A stretch of DNA of 64,000 bases, taken from contig CALXNZ010000006.1 of the NCBI GenBank assembly GCA_944389885.1, positions 1 through 64,000 on the forward strand. Reading direction: 5' to 3'. This document shows, in pieces, positions 50,815 through 53,710 of this stretch (position 1 is its first letter; the number at the start of each line of letters is the position of its first letter). The stretch comes from an uncultured Opitutales bacterium (lineage in GTDB: Bacteria > Verrucomicrobiota > Verrucomicrobiia > Opitutales > Intestinicryptomonadaceae). Under the pieces are notes generated by a model that saw only the letters and a list, made by a program, of their open reading frames with translations, had not been told where the DNA came from and made no database searches. Both the position numbers and the translations under genes were made by a program.

Positions 50815-50957
50815 ATGTAATATATAAAAGCATTTCATTCCGACATTGCCGGATAATCAAATAAAAAATACTTTTCGTGTTTTTTGACAAGTATTACCGG
50901 CCAGCGTTCCGAAAAAGCTTGAAGCGGGCCTTCTTATCTCCACTATCCCAAATATCT

Positions 50958-51560
50958 ATGCAAAAGCCCAATATCCTAAAACGATTATATGATTGGACTG
51001 TATCCTGGGCCGACAAGCCCGGCGGTACTTGCGCCTTAACCTGTCTTTCCTTTGCGGAATCGTCTTTTTTCCCCATACCGCCCGACGTACTTCTAATACC
51101 TATGGTTTTTGGCGCGCCCGCTAAATGGTTCAGGATTGTCGTCATATGCACTGTTGCGTCGGTCCTCGGCGGCGTATTCGGTTGGTTTATCGGGCATTTA
51201 GGGTGGAATCTTCTTCAGGATTTCTTTTTCATGTATGTTCCGGGATTTTCCCACGAGGCTTTTGAAAGCGTCGAAAAGCTCTATCAAGAAAATGCCCTTC
51301 TTGCCATTTTTGGAGCTGCGTTTACTCCCATTCCATACAAAATATTCACCATAGCTGCCGGCGTATGCGACGTTTCAATATGGTCCCTTGTAATAGGTTC
51401 GATACTTGGCAGGGGGGGGCGATTTTTTCTTGTAGGGCTGACTATACGCATAGTGGGACCGAAAGCAAAGCCTTTCATAGAAAAATATTTTAATACTTTG
51501 GCCACAATATTTTTTATACTCCTTGTAGCGGGATTTGTATTGATAAAATATCTCATGTAG
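50958..51560 (+). CDS. YqaA/DedA-like membrane protein (VTT domain)
   Basis: The 200-residue inner-membrane protein has five hydrophobic segments. SFAESSFFPIPPDVLLIPMVF and GAAFTPIPYKIFTIAAGVC carry the paired proline-rich re-entrant loops of the VTT/DedA superfamily; GRGGRFFLVGL holds the conserved arginines. DedA-like proteins act in lipid-carrier movement across the membrane and in proton-driven transport. The YqaA branch itself is uncharacterised. ATG 50958 gives the normal length; the upstream GTG extension is unlikely. Confidence 0.85.
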   Translation: MQKPNILKRLYDWTVSWADKPGGTCALTCLSFAESSFFPIPPDVLLIPMVFGAPAKWFRIVVICTVASVLGGVFGWFIGHLGWNLLQDFFFMYVPGFSHEAFESVEKLYQENALLAIFGAAFTPIPYKIFTIAAGVCDVSIWSLVIGSILGRGGRFFLVGLTIRIVGPKAKPFIEKYFNTLATIFFILLVAGFVLIKYLM

Positions 51561-51580
51561 GGCCGCGATAAACATTCCAG

Positions 51581-51616
51581 AAAAAAGGCGCCTCCATTAT
51601 AGAAGCGCCTTTTTTC
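51581..51616. terminator. Bidirectional terminator between yqaA-like gene and pssA
   Basis: AAAAAAGGCGC (51581-51591) pairs with GCGCCTTTTTT (51605-51615). T-runs exist on both strands for the two convergent genes. Confidence 0.9.
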
Positions 51617-51637
51617 TGAAATAAGATGCCGTCTCCT

Positions 51638-52558
51638 CTATTTGGAACCGGCGCGGATTTTCTTATATTTGTATTTTATAGCCTTTATTGCGCGCGGAGA
51701 ATATTTTATTGGCGACCAGAAAACATAGGTCAAAAATATAATAGCAAAGCTGTATTCCTTTAGGTAAACAATCAAAATTAGGCAGACTATGAGGGCAACA
51801 AAAGACCTAAACCGCATGCTTGTTGTCCAATTTATATGCTTGAACGACGGATACGGAATATTGCTTACCATGAGCCATGCTATGAGAATCATTAAAGGTA
51901 TTAGCAACGGAGTATAGGCTCCGAGATCAAAGCTCAACATTGTAAGCGCTATAGACGCAACTGCCCCAGCTGCCGCGGGAGCCGGAAGGCCGCAGAAATC
52001 TCCAGTTTCGTATTTTTCATGGCCCATTATGTAGGGATTTGTAAGCACATTAAAGCGCGCCAGCCGTATTGCGGCGCACAACATGAACACGAATCCTATC
52101 AGCCACCCTGTATTTTTCAGAAGGCTGCGATACGTCTCCGACATCGACTCCGCAGGCTGAAGTATTAGGAAGAAGGTCAGAAGCCCTGGGGCAACCCCGA
52201 ATGAAATAGAGTCGGACAAGGAGTCGAATTCCTTGCCGAATAACGACATTTTGCCGCTTGCGCGGGCAACGCGCCCGTCGAGGGCGTCGCAGAAGAAGGA
52301 CGCGAGTATGCATATTATGGCCAAGAGGTAATATGCCGTGCTCGAGTCCTTCGGAGCATTTCCCGAAGTCAAGAGAGTCGCAAGGGATTTCATTGTTCCT
52401 TCGGTTTGTTCGGCCGGATGGAATCTGGCCTGTATGCACAATATTATGGAGAGAAATCCAAAAAATAGATTTCCCGTGGTAAAAACGTTGGGCAGAATGT
52501 ATATCTTACTTGCCTGATGTACGTTTTCCCAAAGATTGGAATCTTCGCCTTTGTTCAT
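51638..52558 (-). CDS. pssA: CDP-diacylglycerol-serine O-phosphatidyltransferase
   Basis: The 306-residue inner-membrane enzyme makes phosphatidylserine, the precursor of phosphatidylethanolamine. The CDP-alcohol phosphotransferase motif is complete: DALDGRVARASGKM then FGKEFDSLSDSISFGVAPG. PNVFTTGNLFFGFLSI is the usual opening. About 50 extra residues lie between the first helix and the motif, compared with short family members. Its ATG overlaps the stop of the RelE-like gene by four bases. Confidence 0.92.
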   Translation of the reverse strand: MNKGEDSNLWENVHQASKIYILPNVFTTGNLFFGFLSIILCIQARFHPAEQTEGTMKSLATLLTSGNAPKDSSTAYYLLAIICILASFFCDALDGRVARASGKMSLFGKEFDSLSDSISFGVAPGLLTFFLILQPAESMSETYRSLLKNTGWLIGFVFMLCAAIRLARFNVLTNPYIMGHEKYETGDFCGLPAPAAAGAVASIALTMLSFDLGAYTPLLIPLMILIAWLMVSNIPYPSFKHINWTTSMRFRSFVALIVCLILIVYLKEYSFAIIFLTYVFWSPIKYSPRAIKAIKYKYKKIRAGSK

Positions 52559-52911
52559 TTCTTGAGGGATTCTAAATATTTCCAGAAATTATCCTCCTGT
52601 TCAAACATGGTCTCCTCGCGGTAGGGCAGCTTGAATCTGAATACGAAATCCGCGAGAGTATGTTGGTGAAGCAAATAGTGCGCATGCAGAGTATGTCCGT
52701 CGGGCAATATTTCAAAATATATGCGGTATTCTCCTGTTCGCAACCTATAATATACTTTTCCGGCTCTATGTATGCGCCCTATATTGGGAAGGTTTCCCTC
52801 CAATTCCGCGGACGTTATGGAGCTAAACGCCTCCATTATGGCAAGCTGGGAAAGTTTATCCAGCTTGTTTAGTTCCGCCATGCTTTGGTCGCTGAATGTC
52901 ACCTGGTACAT
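52555..52911 (-). CDS. RelE/ParE-superfamily toxin-like protein without an antitoxin
   Basis: The 118-residue protein starts MYQVTFSDQSMAELNKL, a typical RelE/ParE opening of strand then helix. IGRIHRAGKVYYRLRTGEYRIYFEI gives the central strands with the Arg and Tyr residues seen in RelE-type ribonucleases (positions 60-85). A helical tail of about 30 residues follows. No antitoxin-sized gene is adjacent; the neighbour is pssA, whose start overlaps this stop. It may be a house-keeping regulator built on the RelE fold. ATG 52911 has no clear ribosome-binding site. Confidence 0.75.
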   Translation of the reverse strand: MYQVTFSDQSMAELNKLDKLSQLAIMEAFSSITSAELEGNLPNIGRIHRAGKVYYRLRTGEYRIYFEILPDGHTLHAHYLLHQHTLADFVFRFKLPYREETMFEQEDNFWKYLESLKK

Positions 52912-53023
52912 AATAAATTGTATGTACGCTAACCCGTCTAAAACTATCTTCAAACAAAAAAAGAAGCGAAACTTTTGTGGAAAACGAGCGTTTTGAAGAA
53001 GCATAACCCCAATTAAACCAGAT

Positions 53024-53710
53024 ATGAAAAAATTACTAACATTCGCAATAGCCGCAAGCCTCTGCGCATTTTCCTTTGCCCAAGAAGGGCCAAAGGGCGA
53101 AGGCGGACGACCAAAAAAACACGAAGACTTCTCTAAAATGATGTCTGGAATGGACGTTGGAACACGAGTTCAACTTCTTAAAAAATACGATAAGGACGGC
53201 GACGGCAGGCTCGACAAGAAAGAGCGCGCGGAAGCCATGAAGGCAATCAAGGGAAAAGTGGCCGACCTTGAAGAAATCAAAGCCAAGCATGCCGAGCATG
53301 TAATAAAGAAATTCGATGCCGACGGCGACGGCAAGCTCGACAAAAAAGAGCTTATAGGATTCCTCGACGACCAGCGCAAGATGATGGACAAGGCCCGCGA
53401 AAACATGATGCGCCGCCGCGGGAACTTCAATCCGCCGAAGGAGATTCTTGCAAAATACGACAAGGACGGCGACGGCAAGCTCAGCGCCGAGGAGCGCAAA
53501 GCCATGTTTAAAGACGCCGCCGAGCGCCGGGCCGCCCTCATGAAGAAGTACGACGCCGACGGCGACGGCAAGCTCAATGACGAGGAGCGTTTAAAGCTCA
53601 CCCAGGATCCGGAAATCCAGAACATGTTTAAACGCATGTTAAACACGAACCGGACCCCTCGGGGAGGCGGAGACAACCCTCCTCCTCCTCCCCCGCCTCC
53701 GAACGATTAA
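53024..53710 (+). CDS. Secreted EF-hand calcium-binding protein
   Basis: The 228-residue protein has a signal peptide (MKKLLTFAIAASLCAFSFAQ) and four canonical EF-hand loops: DKDGDGRLDKKE, DADGDGKLDKKE, DKDGDGKLSAEE and DADGDGKLNDEE. Basic and Glu-rich linkers separate them, and the C-terminus is a run of eight prolines before ND. Four loops suggest cooperative calcium binding in the periplasm or outside the cell. The nucleotide repeats of the loops indicate internal duplication. The partner is unknown. Confidence 0.88.
   Translation: MKKLLTFAIAASLCAFSFAQEGPKGEGGRPKKHEDFSKMMSGMDVGTRVQLLKKYDKDGDGRLDKKERAEAMKAIKGKVADLEEIKAKHAEHVIKKFDADGDGKLDKKELIGFLDDQRKMMDKARENMMRRRGNFNPPKEILAKYDKDGDGKLSAEERKAMFKDAAERRAALMKKYDADGDGKLNDEERLKLTQDPEIQNMFKRMLNTNRTPRGGGDNPPPPPPPPND

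Follow-up and report, generated by a model that had tools for sequence, protein, structure and literature searches.

The window analyzed here, that is, the whole stretch of 64,000 nucleotides, contains on its minus strand a 149-residue open reading frame (52555–53004), which the first-pass annotation had read as the gene of a solitary RelE-like protein. A real gene was found at this place, but the alignments of its orthologues start at an internal methionine (MYQVTF, codon 52911–52909). The protein is therefore most likely 118 residues long (52555–52911, minus strand), corresponding to the longer frame without its 31 N-terminal residues, and its start most likely lies at 52911 and not at 53004. 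In addition to these alignments, a search of its own genome and the RelE fold of an AlphaFold2 model (pLDDT 80.1) support this feature. The next gene on the same strand (51638–52558) is pssA-like and encodes a 306-residue CDP-alcohol phosphatidyltransferase (PF01066, E 1e-16), which scores 105.4 bits with the pssA model TIGR00473, slightly below the cut-off of 107. The stop codon TGA of the RelE-like gene (52555–52557) and the start codon ATG of the pssA-like gene (52556–52558) together form an ATGA at 52555–52558 (minus strand), and the four-base overlap noted earlier is thus confirmed. A terminator-like stem-loop of 20 pairs is located behind pssA (51575–51621, minus strand), and the two genes therefore look like a short operon. 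The three terminator-like sites in the region are overlapping versions of this one site and show no excess over shuffled sequences (mean 1.8, sd 1.2), nor do the three promoter-like sites (3.4 in shuffles). Upstream of the RelE-like gene lies a divergent gene for an EF-hand protein (53024–53710, plus strand; PF13202, 1.6e-18, four stretches), and a gene for a VTT-domain membrane protein (50877–51560, plus strand; PF09335, 5.9e-10) is convergent to pssA. The EF-hand frame was joined by a blastp cluster to the upstream frames of 13 other loci of the order.

Assignment of the protein to the RelE/ParE superfamily, proposed from the sequence at first, was borne out by structure prediction and by sequence comparison. 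Both AlphaFold2 models, that of the window protein and a second one with a member of another order placed first (pLDDT 82.5), have the RelE (BECR) fold, and the rows returned by Foldseek and VIA-align were mostly RelE, HigB, YoeB, YafQ and ParE chains. The C-terminal part (residues 84–118 and the stop codon; 52555–52662, minus strand), which according to the alignments and models carries the family-specific residues D88, R92, F109 and W110 and a helix at about residues 105–115, was predicted with low confidence in the first model and with higher confidence in the second. The second model was aligned over nearly its full length with ribosome-bound HigB1 (PDB 7nbu; Z 8.9, rmsd 3.4, 98 residues aligned) and with Cami1 (8phj; Z 8.3, rmsd 3.3, 104 residues aligned). 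The match reached the C-terminus for HigB1, HigB2, a pneumococcal toxin-antitoxin chain and Cami1, at Z values of 8–9 with many rows tied, and with 7nbu, 6af3 and 5ja9 the alignment also ran to the C-terminus (Z 8.3–8.9), where a HigB-like placement of the extra helix is possible, this region being of low confidence in the first model. Only two viral structures matched at E up to 0.001, one of them named 'cytotoxic translational repressor', which adds nothing beyond the fold. Z values of 8–11, obtained here with predicted models, show the fold and not the function. At the sequence level, the best match of the family profile among solved chains was RelE3 of Methanocaldococcus jannaschii (3bpq, E 3.2e-6), and phrog_1213, a 'RelE-like toxin', matched 108 of the 113 aligned family members (window member, E 1.9e-6). 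The window member scored 16.8 bits with PF05016 (ParE_toxin), below the curated cut-off of 23, and at a relaxed E of up to 0.1 this model matched 85 of the 113 members. No consistent match to the protein was found in NCBIfam or PADLOC.

The gene is distributed as a core gene of one class of Verrucomicrobiota. Of 236 genomes sampled from the class, 229 have a match, each of them exactly one; the corresponding numbers are 202 of 205 for the near-complete class genomes and 49 of 54 for the relatives of the window genome. In a sample of 288 genomes of the phylum, a single-sequence search matched 93, all of them of the class; among the 20 genomes listed, nearest kin first, of the 195 without a match, one belonged to the class and 19 to other classes. 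The genome profile searches covered Verrucomicrobiota, and in the same 288 genomes the profile scored at least 110 bits over nearly its whole length in the 93 class genomes, with all other matches listed at 37.4 bits or lower. These low matches mostly span the first 80 or so positions and end near profile position 82, as do those of ordinary RelE toxins. A divergent member of the order (G051) scored 88.7 bits, far above this group. Seven class genomes had no single-sequence match, and the profile search of these seven gave only two weak, ordinary-looking matches; the gene is thus not strictly indispensable in the class. No match was found in plasmids, phages or viral contigs. A scan of contigs gave 477 confirmed stretches, and the titles of the best 80 of the 477 name Verrucomicrobiota, Opitutia/Opitutales or their members, the nearest named isolate among these 80 being Puniceicoccaceae bacterium Marseille-Q1082 (77% identity). 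An apparent loss in G010, a genome of the same genus, was not counted: 8001 bases beside the ctpA homologue (L285, 1-8001; G010:C1:1680000-1688000), at the expected rel-pssA site, read N.

When 40 ordinary RelE proteins of the phylum were included in the tree, the 114 orthologues formed one branch (98/95), as did the 54 orthologues of the window's order (98/99), although the tree has few columns, its bootstrap is not fully settled and three of the 40 ordinary proteins carry a long-branch warning. Such branching is as expected of a vertically inherited core gene. In comparisons within the genus, third codon positions account for 65% of the differences, and dN/dS had a median of 0.06 and a maximum of 0.08 in the 9 of 78 pairs that were not saturated, synonymous sites being mostly saturated elsewhere. 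Judged from these substitutions, selection on the sequence is purifying, as for a real gene.

The absence of an antitoxin beside the gene, which had been noted for the window, was confirmed across the family. Same-strand open reading frames of 40–140 residues abutting the gene were searched for Pfam matches at E up to 0.01, with 40 ordinary RelE genes of the phylum, chosen from those listed in the profile search, as the control. In the control, an abutting small frame was found upstream of 31 genes and downstream of 21, and the 59 frames included Phd/YefM (13), RelB-like (9) and RHH and related families. The 114 orthologues had an abutting small frame upstream in 23 cases and downstream in 29, and none of these 60 frames gave a Pfam match at this threshold. 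Thus, the same test that detects antitoxins near ordinary RelE genes finds none adjacent to the orthologues, unlike in a type II RelBE module. At four loci of other orders (L088, L092, L093 and L102), similar small single-pass membrane proteins with a shared C-terminal pattern are encoded directly downstream, overlapping or abutting the gene. This protein was dropped as a candidate for a conserved partner after an iterated profile found no further case among the 114 loci. From its distribution, its monophyly and the absence of an adjacent antitoxin, the gene is shown to have been a solitary, single-copy core gene since the ancestor of the class.

How far does the active site resemble that of a cleaving RelE? 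The basic residues K52, K54 and R61, which surround the scissile phosphate in E. coli RelE, have counterparts in R56 (codon 52744–52746, minus strand), R58 and R63, an equivalence based on RelE numbering and the 3bpq alignment. The three arginines are kept in 114, 111 and 114 of the 114 orthologues, respectively, and in 39, 40 and 40 of the 40 ordinary RelE proteins. The tail arginine/tyrosine pair (R81 and Y87 in RelE) is missing: the motif R-x(2-4)-[VILAF]-Y was detected in 36 of the 40 ordinary proteins versus none of the 114 orthologues, in which the tyrosine position is occupied by K, A, E, R, T, S, Q or N. The family has invariants of its own, namely Q22, Y65, D88 and R92, together with W110 (113 of 114) and F109 (112 of 114). 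Six residues are invariant over 113 sequences, and the same six are invariant in the other orders too. None of the 40 ordinary toxins has a tyrosine at the position of Y65, which lies two residues from R63 on one strand and should face the same side as R63. In E. coli RelE, R61A, R81A and Y87A were reported to lower cleavage and R81A/Y87F nearly to abolish it, whereas K52A and K54A were reported to be without clear effect on activity (PMC2807027). By analogy, the conservation of R56 and R58 would be only weak evidence for cleavage, because the lysines reported for RelE at these places can be mutated without clear loss (PMC2807027). In addition, the core basic residues may be common to ParE-type relatives that do not act on RNA.

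These data bear on two readings in which the protein is still, or once was, an ordinary toxin. It could be an orphan toxin whose activity is kept down by a small RNA or by an antitoxin gene at another place in the genome; the RelE fold and the retained basic residues would suit such a protein, and the neighbour searches, which cover adjacent antitoxins, leave room for an unlinked one. We nevertheless regard this as distinctly unlikely, given that the gene is single-copy and vertically inherited across the class, unlike mobile toxin-antitoxin genes, that the tail motif is lost in 114 of 114 orthologues, and that plasmids and phages gave no match. The loss of the tail motif and the lack of an adjacent antitoxin would also be expected of a decaying toxin remnant without function, yet a remnant would hardly keep six invariant residues over 113 sequences, a median dN/dS of 0.06 and a presence in 229 of 236 genomes, and this reading is scarcely credible.

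The neighbours of the gene were found to differ between lineages. In the 54 order loci fetched first, pssA is the next gene on the same strand in 50, 23 of them with an NTGA overlap, but these loci, returned best first, are those of the closest relatives, so that the 50 of 54 is biased upward. In the 18 remaining order genomes with the gene, pssA is next in only six and lies 432 bases on in one more. Of the 49 order genomes that carry the gene, 35 show the pairing, namely all 16 of the window's family and 19 of the 33 others; in two of the 14 genomes without it, pssA is located 0.4 or about 3.6 kb downstream. In the other orders, neither pssA nor dnaN was found near the gene at any of 60 loci, most of them with 3 kb on each side, and pssA relatives were detected elsewhere in all seven of the other-order genomes searched. 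The neighbours there vary and include NamZ-like proteins, alanine racemase, an aminotransferase, VWA proteins and others, named by reading their sequences. The gene is kept class-wide with no pssA next to it at those 60 loci, and therefore does not need pssA beside it; the adjacency is confined to some members of a single order. The fixed place before pssA stated in the first-pass annotation thus holds for the window's own family and much of its order, but not for the other orders, and the pair is not conserved across Verrucomicrobiota. At two order loci (L122 and L125, in genomes G248 and G039), no pssA is present at the site, and the pssA found elsewhere in these genomes scores lower (E 6.3e-40 and 9.5e-37) than the linked ones of other order genomes; pssA may therefore have been replaced or moved in these two genomes.

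The pairing had led to the proposal that the protein controls pssA, either by binding or cutting the rel-pssA transcript or, by way of translational coupling, by determining how much PssA is made, and that lipid synthesis is thereby tied to stress. The ATGA overlap, the constancy of the pair in the family (16 of 16) and in 35 of 49 order genomes, the terminator-like hairpin behind pssA and a small genome of 1.1 Mb (G043) with no match to either the RelE-like gene or pssA would all fit this proposal. Against it, pssA is adjacent at none of the 60 other-order loci, where the same six residues are nonetheless invariant; 14 of the 49 order genomes lack the pairing, seven of the 18 distant ones having dnaN after the gene with no pssA between; and one genome (G238) keeps the RelE-like gene with at most a weak pssA match. 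Control of pssA as the general function was rejected, since only some members of one order have the pairing (six of the 18 distant order genomes). Such control may exist in some lineages, but the function that is conserved must be a different one, and as an account of the protein we hold pssA control to be improbable.

Within the order, dnaN is as frequent a neighbour as pssA. It was found downstream in 31 of the first 54 order loci, most such loci ending about 1.5 kb past the gene, and in 12 of the 18 remaining order genomes, five times behind pssA and seven times without pssA between (L290, L291, L295, L297, L299, L301 and L304). Judged by this gene order, the ancestor of the order may have had the arrangement rel-(pssA)-dnaN. 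The frequent dnaN neighbour would fit a replication link, as would suit a ParE-like or purely structural protein whose target is another protein, such as gyrase, the replication clamp or some other enzyme, rather than RNA. The lost RelE tail motif would agree with such a protein, as ParE toxins are reported to be likewise without catalytic residues (PMC11980606). However, dnaN lies near the gene at none of the 60 other-order loci and at none of the 16 loci of the window's own family, and the top matches, the best by sequence and the first rows by structure, are to RelE- and HigB-like proteins, though ParE chains match as well. An action on a protein partner is accordingly considered unlikely.

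Comparison with known systems places the protein near RelE and HigB toxins, with clear differences from each. RelE3, the best match by sequence, was also the first row for the second model (Z 9.4, rmsd 3.0, 84 residues aligned), within 1 Z of the next rows, and the two share a YR-x-R-x-G-x-Y core and an L-H-x(5)-D tail. Unlike the window protein, RelE3 was solved with a RelB antitoxin, has a tyrosine at the tail position, and, with 88 residues, lacks the C-terminal part containing W110. HigB1 is part of a toxin-antitoxin module; in Cami1, a CARF sensor is fused to the RelE domain. The structures of HigB1 and of the Cami1 RelE domain were solved on the ribosome, and both match as far as the C-terminus with its last helix, but neither has a sequence match to the RelE-like family at E up to 1. 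E. coli RelE, a ribosome-dependent mRNA endonuclease, has the same BECR fold and the basic core in corresponding places; it differs in length (95 residues versus 118), in having RelB, which has no counterpart beside the window gene, and in the reported cleavage pair R81/Y87 (PMC2807027), for which the window protein has no counterpart motif. The phage family phrog_1213 covers only residues 1–74 of the window member, and relatives of the window protein were absent from the phage records and viral contigs searched. The MazF fold differs from the RelE fold. The solitary MazF of Myxococcus xanthus (PMC2701414) is nevertheless comparable as a reported mRNA interferase used without a paired antitoxin, although its reported role is developmental and in one species, versus a class-wide core gene here.

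Domestication of a RelE-fold protein, as had been suggested, is well supported, because the gene is single-copy across the class (229 of 236 genomes) and vertically inherited, has no adjacent antitoxin, is under purifying selection and has remodelled tail residues. As to what the domesticated protein does, we give about an even chance to a reading in which the protein, a RelE/ParE superfamily member without an antitoxin, still binds RNA on the ribosome and serves as a non-toxic translation or mRNA quality factor. RNA binding at the ribosome would be retained through R56, R58 and R63, with R92 and the H82/K83 region as further candidates, and cleavage would have been either lost or rebuilt around Y65 and R92. 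The place before pssA would then be an operon arrangement found in part of the order, allowing co-expression by close or overlapping genes; it would not be the function, because the gene is conserved class-wide without pssA. A bolder version, possible but doubtful, is that the toxin fold has become a fixed translation component of the whole class, with a rebuilt RelE that cuts or clears mRNA on stalled ribosomes and needs no antitoxin. The rebuilt site would have lost the tail tyrosine and gained Y65 next to R63, with R92 as a new basic partner and a C-terminal helix carrying F109 and W110. The Smr nuclease domain is a known route to mRNA cutting at collided ribosomes. Complementarity between the gene and this domain was dropped, as the genomes that match PF01713, 64 of 194 in the phylum, lie both within the class and beyond it, without a pattern.

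RelE-family genes have usually been studied as halves of mobile toxin-antitoxin pairs, whereas the one described here recurs across a class with the regularity of a housekeeping gene, and it offers a clean case of toxin-fold domestication and of which residues change in the process. The literature searched gave no account of this RelE-like family. Verrucomicrobium spinosum is presumably a member of the same class. A survey of the RelE/ParE superfamily describes the removal of solitary toxins before analysis (PMC11980606). A published transposon study of V. spinosum, from which the importance of any orthologue could be read, reports 618 essential proteins, 100 of them of unknown function (PMC12283558).
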